A stretch of DNA of 64,000 nt from Pagrus major (taxonomy: Eukaryota; Chordata; Actinopteri; Spariformes; Sparidae). The notes under the pieces were generated by a model. It made no database searches. It saw nothing but the letters and a program-made list of their open reading frames with translations, and was not told the DNA's origin. Where the stretch lies: NCBI RefSeq assembly GCF_040436345.1, contig NC_133236.1:13136443-13200442 (forward strand), in the 5' to 3' direction. Positions 5,983 through 62,300 of this stretch are shown piece after piece; position 1 is the first letter of the stretch; the number at the start of each line of letters is the position of its first letter. Position numbers and translations under genes: made by a program.

Positions 5983-12350
<6,368 letters not shown>

Positions 12351-12387: not shown

Positions 12388-12748
12388 TAGGACTGCAACT
12401 AACAGTGTTTTTTTTTTTCGATTAATCCGACCATTGCTTTCACAATTAATCAATTAATTTTTTTAAAAAATGTGAAAAATGCTCATTGCTATTTCCCAGA
12501 TCCCAAAGTGACGTCTTCAAATTGCCTCTTTTGTCCAACCAACAGTCCAAAACCCAAACACTTCCCATTTACTGTCATGAATGACAAAGAAAACCGGCAG
12601 ATCTTTACTTTTAAGAAGCTGGAACAAACAACTGTTTGACATTTTTGCTTGCACATTGACTAAATTGATTAATCTAATATCAAAATAGTTAGCAATAAAC
12701 GTTCTTTGGATCAAGTAATTGATAAATCGACTAATTGTTGCAGCTCTA
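12388..12748 (+). mobile_element. hAT-like MITE (family M1), full length
   Basis: It starts TAGGACTGCAACTAA and ends TGTTGCAGCTCTA, imperfect terminal inverted repeats. The flanking 8-mers are GTTACTTC (12,380-12,387) and GTTACTGC (12,749-12,756), a 7/8 match, which fits the 8-bp target duplication of the hAT superfamily. It is 361 bp with no coding frame. It sits in HADHB intron 1, close to the exon that carries the start codon. Other copies are at 22,323-22,643 and 61,873-62,256, with fragments at 88-290 and 9,159-9,233. Confidence 0.85.
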
Positions 12749-12756
12749 GTTACTGC

Positions 12757-14414
12757 AAAGTTATAACCAGGGATCTGGTGGAAGAAGAAGTTCATGGCAT
12801 AACATTCTTAAGTTTTAAAAGTTTTACTACTTTCTGTTTTAACAGTGTTGTTTTTAGGGGGGCAGAAAATAATCAAATTTCAACTTAAACTGGACTGCAA
12901 ACTACCAGCTAATACAGTATGTAGACTAAATAACAGAACCCCCTATCTGTATAAAATGACCAGAAAGCTGAATAAACACGTCTCTAAAACAGCTTTAACA
13001 AAATGTGAACACTATAACCTTTTGGAAGGTAGGACTTATTGCAGCACTGTTGTATTAGACAGCAACTTAATAAACTGGGAATTAAGAAAACATACTCTCA
13101 AATTCCCATACAGTGAAAAAGTTTTCCTGGTTTTCCATGACCTCCTCAGAGAATCTGTCAAAGTCTTGGACCTCCTAGTCTGAATTCAGGATGAATTTTT
13201 TATTTTATTCCTGACACCACATAACCCATGATGACTTAATTGTCCTTTAAAACTTTTATTTCATTTTACTCTTTATTTTAAATCTATATATTATACTTCT
13301 ATATATTATACTTTATTCTTTTTACTGCTGTTGTGCCTTCCTGTTTTAACTCACCTTAGACGAGGCTTCCTTGTGCTCGGCTTGACTGCTGAGTTTTATT
13401 TTGTAATATTGTATTCCTGAGTTTCCTGCTTTTGCTTGCTTATTTATTATATTACCGTTGTTACTGTGTGAGTGCGTCCTTTTAGAGTGACATAACTACA
13501 CTACATAGCCCCGGTGGTAATACTCAGATCAGGCTCTGTAGGTAAAAGGTCAACCTGGGACTGGATGTCTGGATCAGACACTCGACCCATAAAACCGTCA
13601 TCCCCGAGTCCCATGGTCTGTTTGACTGTTTATGACTAGGTAACTTGGACATATGGCTATACAAATTATGAGCTGATAAGGTTGTGGTGTGACTATAAAT
13701 TACTTGTGAAAACAGGATGGGGGAATTGCAATAAGCTTGAAAGACTTCCCCATATTTTGTAGCGTAGAGAGAAAAGCAGCTAGTTTAGAGAGAGTGAACA
13801 CCATAAGAAACTGTTAATGCAATGTTACCTTGCTTTATAGTACAAACACACACCCCTGTGAAGTATAACATAACCTTAAGACATTTAATGATTCCTTATT
13901 TAGCTTTAATGTGTTCCTTATTTTCCCATATAACATAGCAATGGGGTTTTAATTCTAGGCTATAATAAATAGATTTATAATAAATCCTATTCTGTCTTTT
14001 ATTATGTGGGCTAATGTGACATATCGTTGACATTCACCCAACCCCACCCCCCTTATCCAGGCTGTGACCCTTCACCTAGATTCCTAGCTGGAGAATGACA
14101 GAGACAGAAATACAGAATCACGGGACTCAATCTGGATCTCTACTGTTTACAGAACAACTTAGTATTTGGCTTAAATAACGTTTGCACAAATTGAAAAAAA
14201 AAAAAAATTAGCTAGTGTAACAAATGGCAAAACGATGACGCTAAAGCTCAATGCAAGCTAATAAAGCTAGTTAGCTACTTGTTAGCTAAAGTTTCCACTG
14301 AGTCAATTCATATCCCCTGTGTTTGGGTTGCAGATACGCATTAGCAGAGTTCATATCATATCTTTGCTCTTTTTTAATTTTATTAGTCGAAGTGATAGAT
14401 AAGTTGAAGCTTAC
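12757..14414. other. HADHB first intron, no gene seen
   Basis: AT-rich intronic sequence with a short poly-A run near 14,191. A 112-codon open frame at 12,845-13,183 has no recognisable domain and no splice context, so I do not call it. Confidence 0.5.
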
Positions 14415-14500
14415 CTGTTCTAGTGTTGTATCTTTGCCGACAGTGCTTCCCTGTCAAACGATCAGCCAGGCTCAGGAGCGCTGCTGGACTACGCTTTCAA
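14415..14500 (-). other. hadhb: Candidate HADHB 5'UTR exon
   Basis: On the minus strand the sequence ending ACACTAGAACAG is followed at 14,414 by GTAAGC, a strong donor. It would splice to the acceptor just upstream of the HADHB start codon. The transcription start is not visible, so the upper limit is a guess. A second donor (AACAGG/GTAAGG) ends at 14,717 and could mark an alternative first exon. Confidence 0.55.
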
Positions 14501-16084
14501 GACCCGTTAGCGTTATAGCTGTCTAAAATAATGCCTGAGTAAAACACACGGGTGACCAATAAAAACACTTAACTGCTTATGTCTACGAGGTATTATGATG
14601 ATGATTTGTAACACCGAAGTTATAAAATATTCATGTTTTACAAATGAAAGATAATTATTTGAGTACAATAACATTTTAGGCTACGGCAATCTTTCAGTGT
14701 GTTTTGAGGTCCTTACCCTGTTTGCAACTCTACACTGTTGGCTCTGCTCTAGCGCCTCCATCGGTCAGGATATGTGTTGTGCATAGAACCTATGACAGGT
14801 GTGTTGAATACACTTTTCCGTATATCCATCATTGACAGGTAAATAACAGCTGGATGACAATAGCACCATCTCATATACTCTCACTAACTGGGCCAGACTG
14901 ATGGTTGACCAAAATATCAGGCCATTTCCGTAGAAGTATAGCTATGTGTTATAATGTGTGTGTCTTCCTCTGATGTGGAAGTTTCAAGACCAGATTTTTT
15001 AATTGTTTACTGTCCTTTCCAGCCTGTAACAGTTAATCAAGTCAAATGTTAGCCCAAATTAACCTTTATTTGCATCGTCAGTATCACTAAACAACTGATT
15101 TAAAGGTCCCTGATAGAGTTTTCATGCAAACACATAAAAGTTGTTTACATACACCGTTGACACATCAAAACACACTGTGTGTATCCTTGAGAACTAACAG
15201 ACTGCAGCTTGATAGTTTGTTGATAAATTAAAAAGGAGTACTTCAATGATTTTCTTAGAAACAATGTATAGACTCAATCAAAAGTAATCCCTCCAATGAC
15301 AGCATGCAAAAATGTAGTGACCAGGTTAAATCTCTGTCTCAGTCTCTGCTCTGTGTGTCTGTTTGACCAAGGGTGGAGCTACACACACACACACACACAC
15401 TGGCGGAGAGGCAAACAGCTAAGGGCCCGTGTCCACATGAGGTTTTTTTCGGGCAAAAAAAACGCTGGCTGTGGGCTCAGGAGCACTGAGATGAAGGGTT
15501 TTTGCTCTGAGGGGAAAAAAACTGCACATGCGACTTGTCTCCATGACAACAACATTTTGACAACCAACGCTGTATGATCGACACTGCCCCTTTGCGGTTT
15601 ACTCTCCGTTTGTTTTTTTATTTGACATCAGGACATCAGAGCAAGTAGGATGTGGGATGAGAGATTTTAAACTCAGAGCACTCTTCATTCACTCTCCAGC
15701 TTGCTTGACCTCAGTTGGTCACTCTCTCTGTCTCGCTCGTTGAGCCGGGGAGGACGGGACTAAATTGTGTGTTTACAAACAGCAACTGACAAATCATCAT
15801 CATTGGTAGCTCATCATCAGGGAGTGTGTTGTCTGACTTTGAAGACCAGCCAATGATCTTGGGGTTTAGTTACTCTTTAAAAACATTAAAACGTTCATTC
15901 AGTTGTTGACAGGCTGGTTCTTTCGCCCTCACAGTTCCCTATACACCCAAGTGTCCTTGAGCAAGGACACCATTCATGTATATTTGTGCTATATATGCTA
16001 ACGCTACTAGAAATTAGCATAATACAATACTGGTAGCCCTCTGCCTGACGGCCTCTCATCTTTTGTACTCTTCTCTCCATCAAG
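14501..16084. promoter_or_regulatory. Ancestral head-to-head HADHB/HADHA promoter region
   Basis: HADHA and HADHB are divergent neighbours in vertebrates and share a bidirectional promoter. This is the interval where that promoter should lie. The HADHB side has usable 5' splice donors. On the HADHA side I found no first coding exon encoding a mitochondrial leader. The interval also holds a (CA)n run at 15,381-15,400 and, near 15,420-15,590, a piece that looks like a MITE end (GGGCCCGTGTCCACATG). No TATA box stands out. Confidence 0.45.
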
Positions 16085-18116
16085 CTCGAACACACGTCAG
16101 CTACCAGCTCAAGGATGATGTGGCAGTTATACGACTCAATGATCCAACAGCCACGGTGTGTGTGTGTGGGTGGGTGTGTGTTTATGGAAGAGAGTGTGAG
16201 ACAGTACATGCATGTCAGAGAGACAGAGAGATTATGTTTGTGACAGTCTTGACTGCCTGTCTCTGTCTCTCACTGACAGATGTGACATGACTAATCAGTG
16301 TGTGTGCGTTTGTGTGTGTGTGTTTGCAGGTGAACACACCGACGGCACAGATGAATTCTGAGCTGACGGAGGCGATGGGAGAGATCTGGTCGAATGGAGC
16401 TGTGAGGTACTGTCTTCATCTCCAGCAAGCGTGGCTGCTCCATCGCCGGGGCAGATATCAAGTAGGCTTGCTAGAGCTTGAACAAGGATTTACAGTACTT
16501 ATGTGTGTGGTCGCTCCTACATTTGTATGTTGTTTGAACCAGAGGTAAAACGTTAATAATGGTGCATTTTGACATTTTAAACTTTCCAGCAAACTGAAGA
16601 CAGTCACACGAGTCACTTCACAGCCAGAGTCCCCAAAACCGAAGACATATTTCGTCCAATGTAAAGAGTGGATTAGGCCTCACCATCAGCTGAACATCAA
16701 CATCATCACCAAAGACCCCTAGGAGCTTAGCCCTCTGACCCCCTAAGTAAAGCTTTTCCGGCAGTTATTTCTACTTTTGACGGATCTGGATCATCATACC
16801 CTGTTTTACTATCTCCTATATCTGTACTTCTGTAAAATTTGATCCCTTTTCATTCTGATGGGTTTTTTTTTAATTGCTCATTATCTTGTATGGCCTGCCG
16901 TCTTCCAGGTCACCATGGTGGAGTGCATTCAATTTAGAGGAGTTAGCCCAATGTCAGATCTGCCAGTTTTGCTTCCCCCTTATCTTTGTGGTAACATTAA
17001 AAGGATTTGGACGAGGACAGATTGGTTGGTTGCTGACGTATTTTTAAGATGATATGAATTATTGTTAGCTAGAAAAGATATTAGCTTCTCTTGTTTTCAT
17101 TGACACTAGTATGACTTGGCCTCAAATCGCATCATTTTGTCGTGTTCGTAAAATTTTACATCATGAAATATCCCTCCATCGCATGCTGTAGTCCCTGCTG
17201 TTGCCTTCTTGAAGCTATATGACCTGAATCCTAGAAACAGGATCACCGTTGCCATGTTTCTTTTTGTCACTTGGATTGGACTTTGGATTGGTCAATGCCT
17301 TCATGAAACTGACATGTATTTTTTGGGCTTTTTGAGCACCACAAGCCTTCTAGTTCCATTATATTTGAGAGACTTCTCCAAAACTCAGCAACTCACACCA
17401 ACATGTATTTTAGATTTTGGGTCAAACTGTCCCTTTAAAGTATTACGTCTGTCCCCTTATGTCTTTACTCTCAGGATAATCCAGTCCTGTAAGAGCAGTG
17501 AGGAGGTCACCCGTCTCTCTTGGGAAGGTCAGAAGGTTTTGGAGAAGACTGAGAAGGCTCCAAATCCCTATCTGCCCGCACCAGTCAGAGACCGCCTCAA
17601 ACGGTATACATACACACACTCATATTAATCAGTTATTCACTTAATGTCTTGAAAGCACTGTCACAGTCTTGCGCTGGTGGCTACTGAGTTACACTGGAGT
17701 ATATTAAGGTCAAGAGGCTCACTTTGGGGGATATCTGTTCATAATATCAGCAACCGGCTTGTCTCATGCCCATGTGTGTGTGTGTGTGTGTAGGTGGGTC
17801 TCCCCGGAGCGTCTGACATGATGCTGACAGGCAGGAACATCAGGGCAGATAAAGCCAAGAAGATGGGTCTGGTGCAGCAGCTTGTGGACCCTCTGGGTAT
17901 GTTCTACGTGTGGCATTTCTTCACTGCTGAAGAAAGATAGTGTTGTTTTCCTGCTGTAATCTTCTGTGGTTTGATCCTCTAGGCGAGGAGCAGGAGGGGA
18001 TTAAACTGTTGTGTCTGTTCACTCCAGGCCCCGGTGTGAAGCCTGCCGAGGAAAGAACTGTCGAGTACCTTGAGGAAGTTGCAGTGGGCTGGGCCAAAGT
18101 AATCGCCAACAAAATG
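16085..18116 (+). pseudogene. hadha: Broken remnant of mitochondrial trifunctional enzyme subunit alpha
   Basis: Five pieces match HADHA in order: 16,085-16,155 (THVSYQLKDDVAVIRLNDP), 16,330-16,461 (MNSELTEAMGEIW, then IAGADIK in another frame), 17,475-17,603 (SSEEVTRLSWEGQKVLEKTE), 17,794-17,896 ([20 protein letters not shown]) and 18,028-18,116 ([17 protein letters not shown]). Most splice sites are intact. The first exon with the targeting leader is missing. About two bases are lost near 16,405-16,412, shifting the frame between 'GAVR' and 'FISSK'. After EKTEKAPNP the expected oxyanion-hole segment with NGSCLGGG is replaced by unrelated residues, and the exon that should follow (GTPEVLLGALPGAGG) is absent. 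No part of the C-terminal 3-hydroxyacyl-CoA dehydrogenase half exists before GAREM2 begins at 20,568. It lies divergently next to HADHB, the ancestral position. I infer loss of function; a working copy elsewhere is likely. Confidence 0.88.
17334..17438 (+). repeat. Interspersed repeat end, shared with 29,451-29,559
   Basis: Starts GAGCACCACAAG and ends CAAACTGTCCCTTTAA; the same start and end with a similar middle ('GTTCCATT.TATT.GAGAGA', 'TCTCCAAAACT') occur at 29,451-29,559. It lies in an intron of the HADHA remnant. Both copies end in TTAA. Family unknown to me. Confidence 0.6.
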
Positions 18117-18373
18117 GTATATTTTTACTTTACACTGAGGTCAAACAGCTCTGTCCCTGCCTGATAGCTGTTTTATTTTACCATTTTCTTTAAATGCAAT
18201 AGCAGCATGACTGTATCCTGCAATAAACCCCACATCTATGTAACATCTATGTGGATGAAACACAGGAGGATAACTTGCTTTCCAGAGGTCATTACGTTTC
18301 TATTTATTTCGTATTCTCTCATTTATTTCTTCATCGCTCTTCTTACAGTGGCCTTGCAGTTACATGATCACAT

Positions 18374-18405
<32 letters not shown>

Positions 18406-20567
18406 TATGGAGTTTCTGTCATGAGAAACAGTTTGGAGAAACATCAGTGGCGTCAGTGAGCAGCCTCTGACCCGTCTGCAGCCTGTCAAGTTGTGGGAAT
18501 GTTACGGAATTGAAAGAAAATGATCTCAGACATTATGAGAGAACAGCAGCTTGAATGGCAACAAGAGAATCACAAGAACTAACACACAGGATTACTCTCT
18601 GACATTTACAACAACATAAATTGCATTTTCACAGTTGTCTGGCCGACGTGGATGGTTTTGCTTCTTGTAGCTGAGGCTAAAGTTCCTGGTTATGTTCATT
18701 TTTTTTCTATCATCAGTCCCTGTATGAAGAAATAGTTTGTAACGCTATAAAAGCTAGATACACTCTGTGTGTCAAATTCATAGAGCAGGCAGAATTATGT
18801 GTATCCCTCTCATCTGCTAATGACTGGATTCAGTCTGGGGCAACATTTTTTAATCTTTCTGGTCATTTCTGACTTGTCTTATTTTTGAAGGTGTTTGTGT
18901 TTTTTAGCCACCATAGATCAAAGCAGTAGAATAATTATTACATTTTCTCATGTTGCACCTATTTTGATTATGTTGGGTAGAGGATACAGCAATTTATTTA
19001 AATGTTGGGCTGTTACTCATTATCATTTTCTTAATCTTTCAATTAATCAAGTAAGAGTCTGGTGCAGGGAATTTAAGAAACTGGTGAAAAACAGCCATTG
19101 AATTCCCTCAGCTTACTTTGGAAAGTTTAAATGGCAGACGTTCCTAAAAAAAAATTGTTCATTACCTCCACCAAGAAGGTTATGTTTTCACTTGTGTCCA
19201 TTTGTCTGTTTGTCCATTTGTTGGTTGGTTTGTCAGCAGGATTACACAAAAACTGCTCAGCGGATTTCCACCAAACTTGAATGGTGGATGGGCCTCAGGG
19301 GCCCCACTTTCTTTAACATTACCAGATAGGGCGTTCTTCGATACTTCTTCGATACAACATCAATTAATGTTGATGAAAAATATCAGCCGTATTTAGGTGG
19401 TCGGTATTTATGTGGAGTGCAGTTGTAGATCCTAGATCTGGTGAGCTTAAATTATGGTTAAGCAATTTTTGGGAGTTTAACATTTCGAGTGATGCAGGGC
19501 TAATGAGCATTTTTTCTTTTATCCAAACGTATTACTTCCAGGCATCAGTGTGTTTTTTGTCTTGTTATTTGTAGTGAAAAAAAATAATTACTGGATGTGA
19601 ATTCAATTTATTTTTTATGCCTGGCCAAATCAAGCAGATCTGAAAAAGTGATCTGAGGTACATTTTGAGAACTCTATATCCGAGGAAGTCGAAGCTTCTA
19701 TTAAAGATGGCAACACATCTGTATATCTGACAACAGGCGGACGGACATCTTGTGTCACGTTTGAAAGGAATGTAAAAAAAAACTGTATATTTGAGTTCAG
19801 TTTCATAGTTCAGTGAATCATTGATCGGTACCAGAAACTCAATCAGTACTTCATTGGGTGCTTTTAACTTTCATATTTTCTTAATTTCCTTTTTTTTGTT
19901 ACGCTTTAAACAACTTTAACAACTCTTTCTTGTCTCCTCAGGACCACTTTGTAAATTGAGCCAACTGCAGGCTGCTGAAGCTCAATGAGACGGATGAAGG
20001 ACATTCAGGTAGGAACAGATTCAATGTTACATCTGTGTCATCACGTGTCACCAACAGAGGCTGTAAATGCCCCTCATACTGAAAAAAACACTTACATTAA
20101 ACCCTCCCTGTTGTTTGAATGATGCAATATGAAATTCTCTCCATTTGTCAAAATATTGTTTATGGAGAATGAAGGCATTTTTTCCCTCACATCAGATTTT
20201 GTGTGGGACCACAGCATGAGGGAACCTCTCGCTGTCTCGGAGAATGAAGAATGTGGTTGAAAATCTGCCCAAAGAAGAATTGAAACGGGGCACTCTCATC
20301 ATGTGGCCCTCTGTCGTAGCCATTTGTTAGTAAACTAGTCCCAGTCTGTGATTCAGACAGGAAGTACACAGTTAGTCTGGCGTGAGAGCCAGTCAAGTGT
20401 CAGTCCTACAGTTTGACCACAGGGTGGCGTCGTTTCCTTTAGCATAGTCTCAGCTTGAGTCAGTCGTGGCTCAGCAGCCGGTTGGTCACAGTGGAAGGCA
20501 CATTCAGGACGGCTCAGTAGCCAACAGGCACATTATCAGGACAGTGTGTGTTGTGTGTGTGTGTGTA
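18117..20567. other. HADHA-GAREM2 interval, no exon recognised
   Basis: No further HADHA exon could be found here, although roughly 500 residues of HADHA should follow. The interval has a (GA)n run at about 18,376-18,401, an interspersed repeat at 19,165-19,460, and the expected GAREM2 3'UTR side (minus strand) next to 20,567, starting with a (CA)n run on that strand. A segment at 19,933-20,008 has splice-like edges but encodes nothing I recognise. Confidence 0.5.
19165..19460 (+). repeat. Interspersed repeat R3 (copy 1)
   Basis: Contains TTGTCAGCAGGATTACACAA followed by AAACTGCTCAGCGGATTTCC, then a thymine-rich 'TTTAACATTACCAGATAGGGCG' type segment and 'GATGAAAAATATCAG'. The same opening is at 34,850-35,010. 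This is a widespread fish repeat to my recollection, but I cannot name the family with certainty. Confidence 0.65.
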
Positions 20568-38976
<18,409 letters not shown>

Positions 38977-53300: not shown

Positions 53301-56300
53301 TGTTATCAACATGTGTTGTATTTGGTTTGTGTAGATCAAACTGGTGAACATCAACATCTCAGATATCATAGATGGACGGCCCTCCATCATCCTCGGACTC
53401 ATATGGACCATCATCCTCCACTGTCATGTGAGTACCAATGCTAAACTAGTGCTCACACACATTCCCCTACTTCTACTTTTGTGAAAGAGAAGAGGAAACT
53501 ACAGCAACAGGATCTTGTACTACATGATTAATAACTTCAAGAACATACAGATTTCAGCCATTTCAAAGATACTGATCATTTGACATACAAGATATTGTTT
53601 TATTGTCTCTGTTTTAGATTGAGGAGTTGGCCAACACTCTCTCCTTCAGCTCTCGTCATTCCTCCCTCGACTCTCTGTCCAGCCTGGACTCCTGGTCTGG
53701 CAGCCCAGTCCCGGCAAGTCCGGTCCCTGGAGGACGGACATCGCCTCTTCACAGACGTTTCAGAGTATCCGCCAAGAAAGCCCTGCTCATGTGGGTCAGG
53801 GACCAATGCCAAAGGTGGTTTTTCTACCATATATATGAATGCTTAAAATTGAATCTTTATCACTGGCAACCTGAAAAGTTTTCTGGGCAGCATGGTGGCA
53901 CTGATCCATCACAGGAGGAATGACAGTTAGTCCTTGACCTGTCTTTGTCAGGTTTGCATGTGTTTCCTTAGTTTGCATGTCTTTTCTCTTAATCAACCTT
54001 TGTCGTAGCACAGTTCAAACACATGCAAAACAGATGGACAAGCTAAATTGCTTGTTGGTAGTAATGATAGAGTCGAAGCAATAACTGGACAATGACTGAT
54101 GTTTTGCGACCACTTCAAGACAGACTGGCTCAGACCCTCTTTGGTGCTTTCTTCTTGTTAATTTGTGTTTATCTCTCTAGGGTTGGCTGCTCTGTCAGTG
54201 TGAGGGACTTCAAGTCAAGCTGGAGAAGCGGAGAGGCCTTCTTGGCCATCCTGTGCTCTCTCAGACCACAGCTGGTGGATCTCTCACTGGTCAGGTCCAG
54301 AAGCAACCAGGAGAACCTGGAAGAGGCATTTCACCTGGCTGAGAGGGAGCTAAACATCCCCCGCCTACTGGAGCCGCAGGGTGAGGCTCATTCAGTAGTG
54401 ACTTATACTGGTTCTCAGTATTTTTAAGGGAATCCTTTAGCTACGATAATTCACTTTGTTCACCCATTTCACCTCAGACAAAACTGTGTGAACTTGATTT
54501 TTATACATAGGATGAGGCGAAACCTGTTGCTTCAGTGGGATAGTCAGGTTAAGCAACAGATTCCTGCTCCTGCGAAGCACTGAGAAAAAGTAGTGTATTA
54601 TTTTTCATCATGTGTAAACCTTTCTGTGTCTTTACCCGAACCCCAGATGTTGACGTGAAAGACCCTGAAGACAAGTCCATTATGACATATGTGGCCCAGT
54701 TTCTGCAGTACTCTAATGACATGCCATCACCTGATGATCATCTGCAGGTAGGAAATGAAACCTTTACTGCAGAACTGACTTCATCTACAACTTGCCTTCT
54801 TGAAAGTTTCTGTCCCTGCTGCATCTCTTTCTTGTTTGAACCCACAATCTCCTGCATGAAACAAACCTTTTCTGACCTTGCCTTTTCCCCCCATGGTGGC
54901 ATTGGTGCAGCTGTTTCCTCTGGTCCAGCCCTCTTTTCTCTCCCTTGAGAACTTGCCTGCTCACTTCACTCCAGCAGTTGCTGTCTCACCAATACGTCAG
55001 GTAGCTGTACACTGGGCAAAGAAGTCCTTCTTCAGTTCATATTTATCAGTCTTTTTAAAAGTCTTTTCTTTCACTCTGTTGCATTGATGATGCAAATCTT
55101 CTTGACAAACAATTCAGCTGCCGTTTATAAGATGGATGGCTATCAATGCACAGGGCTTCTTAAAATTTGAATGGGTCAAAATCTCTTTTCTCTGAAACCT
55201 AGTTGAGGCAAACTCTTAGGTCTGTTTGAGTATGGCACGTGCTTCTTACATTTAGATTAACACAGAAACGTTATTAATGACAGTTTGAATTTTGAAAATG
55301 TAGGTCTCTCCAAGTGAGCGTGCAGAAGAGGTGACTTGCTGGCTGCAGCAAGCCTACCAGGAGCTGTCAGAGTCGCAGACAGCTACAGAGAAGTCAAGCT
55401 TTGCAGAAAAATATCAGGTAAGGTGAAGCAGAAGAGCCGAGAAAAGAAAACGCTGATTTGTGTCTACTATTTATTGTTGTTGTTTAGAAGTTTTAACTGT
55501 TTTTGGATCATTAGGTGTTTCAGAACTTCGCTGATTCCTTCACTGAGCAGAGGAAACCAGTGATGACCCTCCTTGCTTCCATAAGACGCCGTCCTGAGAT
55601 GAGCCAAGAACAGTGTGCTCTCAAGGCAGCATGGGATCGTTTAGAGGAGGAGGTGAGGAAATCTACCTCAGTATAATAAGCAGTATGGTCATACTCTGCA
55701 CCCAGCAGCTTTTTAGTCACTTAAAGTCTTGCTCATTTACTGCCTCCTTTGCAATTTTTTAAACATGTTTCTTGTGTTAAGTGTTTTGTGTTTAGTGCAT
55801 TTGTCTGGGCAAATGCTCCTGAGGCTGCTTTTAATGTGGAAATTGGCTCCTGCTGAGTCCCTTCCTTTATCTCCAGATGTGTTAGACTCATTAGACAACG
55901 TTACAATCAGCAGGTTTGTGCTTATACCAGGTTGTTTATGTGCGTGTCATTACTCAGCTGCAGAGACGTAAAGCAGACCTGGACTTGAGCCTTCCTCCTC
56001 CCCTGGACTCAGTTGTCTTGTGGCTGCAGCGAGCGGAGGCAGCGCTAACAGAAGAGGGAGGAGGAGGGAAAGATCATGCAGATGCTGCCAAAGAAGCAAG
56101 AGTTCAACAGGACACACTAAAGGTTATTTTTAATTTGAATCAAAAATCGAAATGTAACATTTTCTAGACAACTCTGAAGTGGCATATATGCTATGGAATG
56201 AGAATGTCACATCTTGTTTTTTTTGTGCTTATAATCACTTAAATTGTTTGCTGTTTTTTTCTTCAGACTTTAATTAAGCAGATGAGCCACCACGTCGATA

Positions 56301-59300: not shown

Positions 59301-62300
59301 GGGGCACCAGGATGTCATATTCACCCTCCTCTTGCTCAAACTGTAAAAGAAGCGGAGCAAATGACTCAGCCACAGTCAGTGTCCAAATCACACACTCAAG
59401 TTTCACGTCCGAGTCAAAATGATCAACTTCTCCCTGCCTTAACCGAAGCTCCTGCTGGAACAACTTGTCCAAAAAGTCCAGTTCTGTCAAGTCCAGTTTC
59501 TGAGGAAAAGGAAAGCTCATCTTCCCCACAAATCCACATGTCAAAATCCAGAATAAGAGTGAAACCAAACACCCCACAAAGTAATAAAACATCTCCACAG
59601 CCACCGGTTATGGTCCGCAGTGAAGTTCATTCAAAAGCCCAGTCGATGGCGAGGAGCAGACTGGAGAAGGCCAGGTTTCGTCTGCAAGGACGCATCCAGC
59701 AAGCCATCAAGTTATTTGGTGGCAAAGAGATTTCAGAGTCACAAGCCAAAAGGAAGCAGGTACAGATTTAAATATTATGGATATAGTATTATTTATTCAT
59801 CTTCAGAAAAGTTTCTCGATAGCAAAAGTAAATGAATGAATAGTAAAGACTTTGAATTAAGAATATATACGTAGTTTCAGATTATTTTTTTATCATTCGT
59901 GAAAAAGGAACTTTGCACTTGCTAATAAGTGTTAATCAAAGTGACTATAAAGCTGGCTTTGCACCCAATTGTTGCTTAAAGAAAATGCTTTCATGCTTAA
60001 ACATCCAGACCATAGAAACTCAAAAATGTAATTTCAGAATTGGGACATATTTTTTAAAAGGTCTGTGGTGTTTTGCTTTGCACAGCTGCCGGTTTTGTCC
60101 GCGTATGTTTGTCTAGCTTTCTGTGTCTTTCTGTGCAGAGAGCTTTAAAGATTCTGCAGCCTGCCATCCTGGAGGAGTTCCTGGTTGCAGTGGAGGGTTT
60201 TGGGGCCTTTTGCACTGGGCCCCAACTCCAGGACTTGATGCTCCTGTCTGACTCAGTCAGAAAGCAGTGGGAGGTATGACAGAGACCGTACACAGAAGAC
60301 TGTTGCATCTATAAGAAGGGGTTCAGTCACCTCTGTCATGAAGAAAGGTTTAACTGCGCTTTGAACCGGTCTAAAGGCTTAATCATACACCATACAATAT
60401 ATTCCTGAAGTTTAATCTGTTTTATTGTCCTCAATCTTACTCTTAATACAGTCAACACCCAAAAATATTGATTGTGTCATATCTGTTTGTTGAAAACTAA
60501 AGTCAGCCAAAGAAAGAAAGCTTAGCTTCATTTTACTTTTTATGTACAGTATCTTACTTTCTGATTTGTCCCACCTGTAACACTGTAGTTCATCATCATA
60601 ACTCATAACATAACTCATTTAATTCAGTAGCTTTAACCGCTATGATATACCATGATAACTTATCACTTACATTTTTCTTAAGTACCTTGTTTGTGTCAAA
60701 CTCAGGATGTACGCAGAGAAATGGCGGCCTTTGTTCCTGTCTTATTGTCTAAGATCAGAGAGGGAGAGCAGTCTTTATCTGTTGTGCAGTGTGAAATGCA
60801 AACTAACCCCCTGCATGAAGCCACTGACCAGACTGACCTTGACTCTTTGTTGCAACAACAGGTATTTGCATAACTCTGTAACATTTGCATTAACATCTAA
60901 CTGTGTCGTGTGACAGACTGTATGATCTGGGAAACGTTACGATAGCCAGAAAGAAAGAAACTTGATTTTAGTTCACATGTTTTCCAGGCCGTCATGGACG
61001 ACGCTGCATCTGCTGAGGAATGTGTTGAAACGCTCCAAGAGCTGTGTGAAACACTGACACCAAGTGAATCCTCCTGCCTGGAAACAGACCAACTGAGAGA
61101 GTCAGATGAAGCACAGGAAACACAGCCCAGTGACATAGTGCTCCCATCTGACTGGTAAGATAATGCTAAGGAGAGGCGGCATGAGGTGTAATACATTAAA
61201 AATCAACACATTTAAAGATCCACTCCACACATGTATTAAGGCATATTAAAACAGTGTCTGAGAAGGTTTTTGCTGAAAAAAGTATCATTAAAAAAGTATA
61301 ACCACATTCAAATCCTCAAATGGACATCTCCCACGTTGTTTAATTGAAGCAGACAGCTTATTTATTAACCATTGTCACTCTGTAATCCCTCAAGTCTATT
61401 AATCGTAATGAGCTGCCTGTAGTAGGACTGAGTGGTTCTAACCATCCGACATTGACCTCCCACTGATGAACACTTCTTAACTCAGCAGGGGACAGCAGCT
61501 CTGGGGTAACACCCCGCTGAGAGCGACTGGCATGTCGGCTGACACACAGCAACAGAGCAACAATCTCCCACATAAACAAAGCGTGGACAGCCCACAACAA
61601 GACCTGTCACCTGTGGGAGGCAGTGGGGATGTCGTGAAGTTGCGAGTTCAGGATGTCCCAACAGAGAGCGAGGAAGACCTCACACAACACAGTGGCTGTG
61701 GGTCAGTGAAAGATCTGAAGCCATCACTTCGAGCCAAAGAGCAGTCGCTGAAAGTTCGTCTGTTGCACATCCCTGGGGGCAATCAACAAACCCAAGCTCA
61801 TATACAGGTATGAAGAGGGCTTTTATTTAGATTCTCTTAATTTTATGAGCTCTATAGGTATGTTATTGCTTTTAGGGCCGCAACTAATGATCATTTTCAT
61901 TAACAATTAACTTGTCAATTATTTTCACAATTAACTGATTGTTAAGTGAATTGTTCAGTGTATAAAATCTCAAAGATTGGGAAAAATGCTAATCACAATT
62001 ACCCAGAGCCCACAGCGACATCTTCAAATTGCTTCTTTTGTCCATCCAACACTCCAAAACCTCCAAAAGACTCTTCATTGACCATCATAAATGACACAGA
62101 AAGGCAGCAAATCCTTACAATTAATAAGCTGGAATCAGCAAATGTTTGACAGTTTTGCTTAAATGATTCTTGACTGAAATGATTAATTGATTATCAAGAC
62201 TGTTGGGAATTAGTTTTCTTTTGATAAACTCAAATCAACCAATTGTCAGAACTCTAACTGATTTGTCAGCTCTGAGTTTCAGCGAGAAACAACGATTTGC

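Follow-up and report, generated by a model that had tools for sequence, protein, structure and literature searches.

The window analysed here is the whole 64,000-nucleotide stretch of Pagrus major DNA at C22:13136443-13200442, and positions given below without a contig name refer to it. HADHA and HADHB encode the alpha and beta subunits of mitochondrial trifunctional protein, a fat-burning complex in which each subunit requires the other, and the left part of the window carries an intact HADHB gene that lies head to head with the remains of HADHA. Thirteen HADHB coding exons on the reverse strand (5983..11630) form a single open frame that runs from about residue 38 to one terminal stop, in agreement with the first-pass annotation of this DNA, which had called the gene intact. 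Probable N-terminal coding exons, placed by eye from ATG-led frames, are located at 11920..12350 on the same strand, with the ATG at 12350. Farther upstream, positions 14415..14500 on the reverse strand may hold a 5ʹ untranslated exon of HADHB and the promoter area formerly shared with HADHA, to judge from a donor-like sequence recognized by eye and from CpG content. The CpG ratio is 0.68-0.73 at 14201-14800 versus a window mean of 0.38, and is 0.64-0.94 versus a mean of 0.38 at the start of a second HADHA copy on contig C16 (C16:9540701-9541900), but the signal at both surviving starts is weak because other stretches equal or exceed it.

A dispersed repeat at 12415-12640 separates the possible promoter area of HADHB from its coding exons and is found again at 61982-62150 and at C16:9524815-9525037 (77% and 83% identical). 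The far-side neighbour of the HADHA remains is a reverse-strand gene (20571..26532) whose CABIT exon (25462-26532) scores above its cut-off and whose SAM match (20571-21194) falls below it, and which we take to be GAREM2. Near the other end of the window, an exon encoding a CH domain (54071-54424, forward strand) is followed by long forward-strand open frames that continue to 64000 and through the next 8000 bases; we presume that this gene is perhaps nesprin- or calmin-like. One piece downstream of the window, within the same run of open frames, matched no Pfam family. Outside the window, at about 13203.9 kb of C22, a run of N within a long TA-rich simple repeat represents an assembly gap or masked sequence. 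No structured RNA family reached its gathering score in the window.

Remains of HADHA beside HADHB

Five pieces of HADHA reside in order on the forward strand at 16085-18118, and they correspond to exons 3, 4, 5, 7 and 8 of the 20-exon gene. A human HADHA query yields five short forward-strand matches in this interval. To avoid dependence on human sequence, all 20 exons of the C16 copy were also aligned locally, one by one and as DNA, to positions 14001-20600 and to eight control stretches of C22. The scores of exons 3, 4, 5, 7 and 8 were 139, 277, 266, 348 and 194, respectively, versus best control scores of 91, 135, 113, 103 and 106. Five of 20 exons therefore exceed all eight controls with their order kept, which puts the HADHA ancestry of the relic beyond chance and establishes that the five exon-like pieces noticed in the first-pass annotation, in divergent position, are all real.

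The relic of exon 3 (16085..16155) retains 71 bases, 47 of them identical to C16 exon 3, together with its AG acceptor and GT donor. Exon 4 (16330..16461; 91/132 identical) has a net loss of two bases that aligns at about 16403/16404, and thus the loss of about two bases previously placed near 16,405-16,412 is present. Exon 5 (17475..17603; 90/127 identical) has a degenerate 3ʹ part and a net loss of 10 bases. This exon end had been described as lacking a segment encoding NGSCLGGG, which is better worded as degeneration of the exon end with that net loss; the GT donor is kept. Exon 7 (17794..17896; 84/103 identical) is the best preserved, and exon 8 (18028..18118; 62/91 identical) is without its 3ʹ end and donor. 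The splice sites are well kept, as had been stated: AG acceptors are present in all five pieces and GT donors in the four complete ones (exons 3, 4, 5 and 7), and the intron positions are common to the relic and C16 HADHA. Both deletions, in exons 4 and 5, shift the reading, and the five pieces spliced as they stand contain stops in all three frames.

Exons 1, 2, 6 and 9-20 were not found by exon-by-exon DNA alignment within 14001-20600, a test with little power for exons 1, 2 and 10, which are short (67, 42 and 57 bases). Of these 15 uncredited exons, 14 scored no higher than their control maximum. The other, exon 10, gave a match at 15176-15223 with a score of 75 versus a control score of 74, and was not credited because it lies upstream of exon 3 and is thus out of order. 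The first reading had noted one missing leader exon; the absence stands, but the number does not, as there are two such exons in the intact gene and both went undetected here. It had also reported no trace of the dehydrogenase half, which agrees with our failure to detect exons 9-20, which include it, in the same interval. These exons would be expected at 18119..20560, in the stretch that separates the pseudogene from the point where GAREM2 ends. Amid this stretch is a dispersed-repeat fragment (19220-19298) that is 81% identical over 79 bases to 34892-34970.

The relic is also faint at the protein level. A whole-genome protein search with human HADHA recovers two of the five pieces at E values up to 0.01 (C22:13154233-13154340 and 13154466-13154561), and the exon 7-8 piece matches Pfam ECH_1 below the cut-off (18.8 versus 27 bits). 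The two hydratase glutamates of the human enzyme correspond to exon 6 and the end of exon 5, and these parts are gone or degenerate in the relic.

An intact HADHA gene on C16

Genome searches covered 785,883,843 bases in 25 contigs. Human HADHA (E 0.01) gave 23 matches, of which 16 fall in a gene on C16, two in the relic and five elsewhere. The last five (three on C9 and one each on C1 and C19, with 33-58% identity) resemble related enzymes. The gene model at C16:9541059-9548176 is a complete HADHA with 20 exons and 2292 bases, comprising 763 codons and a single terminal stop, and 546 of its 763 residues are identical to those of the human protein. All 19 introns are GT...AG, where modelling had required AG and GT or GC, and the 3HCDH_N, 3HCDH and ECH_1 domains all score above Pfam cut-offs. 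The proposal that this lineage relies on a paralogous HADHA is thereby supported. For exons 1, 2, 10 and 18 the search gave no match anywhere in the genome and so is uninformative. The missing exons that are visible to it (6, 9, 11-17, 19 and 20) occur at HADHA-level identity at C16 alone, and on the same exons we rejected the idea that the missing half has another copy somewhere else in the genome.

An equivalent search with human HADHB gave 13 matches, 10 in the window gene (C22:13142704 to 13148103) and three elsewhere (two at C22:17.96 Mb and one on C1; 38-51% identity) that resemble other thiolases. The window copy is the sole HADHB found in the genome. With HADHA on C16 and the only HADHB found on C22, the divergent coupling of the two genes is broken, as had been proposed.

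The two loci also share a DNMT3A duplicate. A query with the catalytic part of human DNMT3A gave 31 matches: seven on C16, seven on C22 and 17 on C7, the last at three places that resemble other DNMT3 genes. The C16 copy (9649716-9655147) is about 100 kb beyond HADHA, and the C22 copy (12632449-12636721) is about 0.5 Mb from the window. Gene order on C16 is HADHA, a KIF3-type kinesin, an ASX-type PHD gene and a ZZ exon of dystrobrevin type, and on C22 it is HADHB, the HADHA relic and GAREM2. The human 2p23 order is DNMT3A, DTNB, ASXL2, KIF3C, RAB10, GAREM2, HADHA and HADHB, of which both fish loci would be subsets, with the C16 genes taken as the presumed counterparts of their human namesakes. 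A GAREM2 query matched its own place and C19, with no match on C16. Comparing the two stretches, C22 with C16, both as DNA and in translation revealed no shared gene beyond the HADHA exons, and widening the comparison by 10 kb at each end added no further match; the other matches resemble repeats, as judged without checking them one by one. The pairing of C16 with C22 thus rests on DNMT3A plus HADHA itself.

In the place that HADHB has on C22, C16 carries an RPS6KA5 kinase gene (C16:9523655-9535216) head to head with HADHA. Among 56 of 666 candidates scored, RPS6KA5 gave an exon run at this place and another on C13, the latter taken for RPS6KA4; the first RPS6KA5 exon on C16 had no confident location. 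No HADHB relic was credited in the 20 kb upstream of C16 HADHA when exons were aligned against controls. Two of 13 exons outscored their best control, by 106/94 and 92/80, an excess that we read as chance among eight target and 14 control stretches. Because these 20 kb show no relic, a former HADHB on C16 is something that we infer.

Rate and timing of decay

The relic and C16 HADHA were compared over 159 codons, a set that takes in the first 94 bases of exon 5 and the surviving part of exon 8 and excludes codons that are split by introns or fall at the exon 4 gap. Fifty residues differ. When human HADHA is added to the comparison, 28 changes turn out to be unique to the relic and six to the C16 copy (binomial p = 0.0002). 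The 133 nucleotide differences fall 32, 26 and 75 at the first, second and third codon positions, corresponding to a dN of 0.22 and a dS of 1.12 (NG86). Since third positions carry most differences, dN is low relative to dS, and the relic branch is nonetheless the faster one, C22 HADHA appears to have been under selection for a long time and then released, with its decay coming late. The shared intron places and a dS of about 1.1 further indicate that the relic is an old, unprocessed duplicate. A processed copy is ruled out by the introns, and a recent segmental copy of C16 by the synonymous divergence.

With three assumed rates, the unconstrained phase can be roughly estimated to span 3-17% of the period that followed duplication, if all extra changes came after full loss, if each codon has 2.25 nonsynonymous sites, and with the reservation that dS is near saturation. 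The teleost genome duplication occurred near 300-350 million years ago. If that event produced the two copies, the free phase would perhaps have lasted about 8-60 million years, a figure that is too high if constraint was already relaxing while the gene still worked. The recent loss once suggested for this locus therefore holds only relative to the age of the duplication; in absolute terms, if the duplication is the teleost one, the loss is perhaps tens of millions of years old.

Some features of the relic could reflect constraint that still acts on part of it: the excess of third-position differences, the 159 codons without an in-frame stop in the ancestral frame, and exon 7, in which only three of 34 residues have changed. 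The lack of stops and the state of exon 7, together with the five intact acceptors and the four intact donors of the complete pieces, would suit a relic retained in a short spliced transcript, which would either encode a hydratase fragment or act as a non-coding RNA driven by the promoter once shared with HADHB. We nevertheless regard such retention as quite unlikely. A short coding transcript, as first suggested, conflicts with the frame disruptions of exons 4 and 5 and with the stops that block the joined pieces in every frame; exon 6 is gone and the end of exon 5 is degenerate, the two parts that hold the hydratase glutamates, and the leader exons were not found. The lack of stops says little, because we estimate that only about one would be expected under a short period of neutral decay.

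Separation of the HADHA and HADHB pair

We consider it highly probable that C22 HADHA is an unprocessed pseudogene and an ohnologue of C16 HADHA, and that the pair was split by opposite losses after duplication of the locus. Behind this reading stand the anatomy of the relic, the intact C16 copy, the single HADHB found, the DNMT3A pair and the faster C22 branch. The duplication was very probably the teleost whole-genome duplication. An ancestral head-to-head HADHB-HADHA pair, presumably driven in fish by one promoter, would have been duplicated along with its surroundings. C22 would then have kept HADHB and lost HADHA as small deletions arose and exons 1, 2, 6 and 9-20 were removed or eroded away, whereas C16 would have kept the complete HADHA and lost its HADHB, such that each copy of the promoter retained one direction. 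The enzyme complex would now be assembled from C16 alpha and C22 beta subunits, and, because genes on separate chromosomes cannot have their expression tied by a shared promoter, the subunit amounts would presumably be balanced in trans. A fuller version, in which the pair was split by complementary loss, promoter coupling is dispensable and the relic exons beside HADHB persist through a non-coding transcript from the old divergent promoter, is a rather doubtful possibility.

Two other explanations seem highly improbable. HADHA might be whole in the animal, with exons 1, 2, 6 and 9-20 collapsed or deleted in the assembly, and the single assembly used as the basis and the simple repeats in the region would permit this. 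However, an assembly error of this kind fits poorly with the frame-shifting losses inside the surviving exons 4 and 5, with the concentration of residue changes on the C22 copy, with the restriction to C16 of exons 6, 9, 11-17, 19 and 20 at HADHA-level identity, and with the absence of N from the stretches examined, namely 84 kb of C22 that contain the window and 59 kb of C16. Local transposition of HADHA from C22 to C16, leaving a damaged source behind, would account for the single intact copy found, yet it can be given hardly any weight: the C16 gene sits in the same kind of neighbourhood as in human (KIF3C, ASXL2 and dystrobrevin), DNMT3A copies are present on both C16 and C22, and a recent move would have left a synonymous divergence far below the value of about 1.1 seen here.

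This arrangement resembles known systems in several respects. Other unprocessed pseudogenes from the teleost duplication likewise keep their introns, show old synonymous divergence and have an intact sister on a chromosome that carries another shared duplicate. The complementary loss of neighbours known from teleosts differs in that here the oppositely lost genes encode partners of one complex. Human HADHA and HADHB are described as a head-to-head pair on 2p23 with one bidirectional promoter region (PMC5983392, citing Orii 1999). The C22 locus has the same two genes in the same order as the human locus, but its alpha gene is dead and a different chromosome carries the one that works. Zebrafish has two alpha genes, hadhaa and hadhab, whereas one of the two copies in Pagrus major is a pseudogene. 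Both alpha copies can apparently persist elsewhere, because zebrafish intestine is reported to contain Hadhaa as well as Hadhab protein in succinylated form (PMC9171437). The fish in the hadhab literature, as placed by title or abstract, are zebrafish, yellow catfish, hybrid taimen and Atlantic salmon, and the titles and abstracts found, which cover the literature in part, contain no description of HADHA and HADHB split across chromosomes.

The case seems to be one of ordinary duplicate loss, with the twist that a pair sharing a promoter in people is now on two chromosomes. The split pair may also inform how the two sides of a bidirectional promoter each turn one-way. Pagrus major offers a natural test of whether the shared promoter matters for balanced production of HADHA and HADHB; on the rather doubtful fuller version above, the trifunctional protein of this lineage would have no need of shared-promoter coupling.
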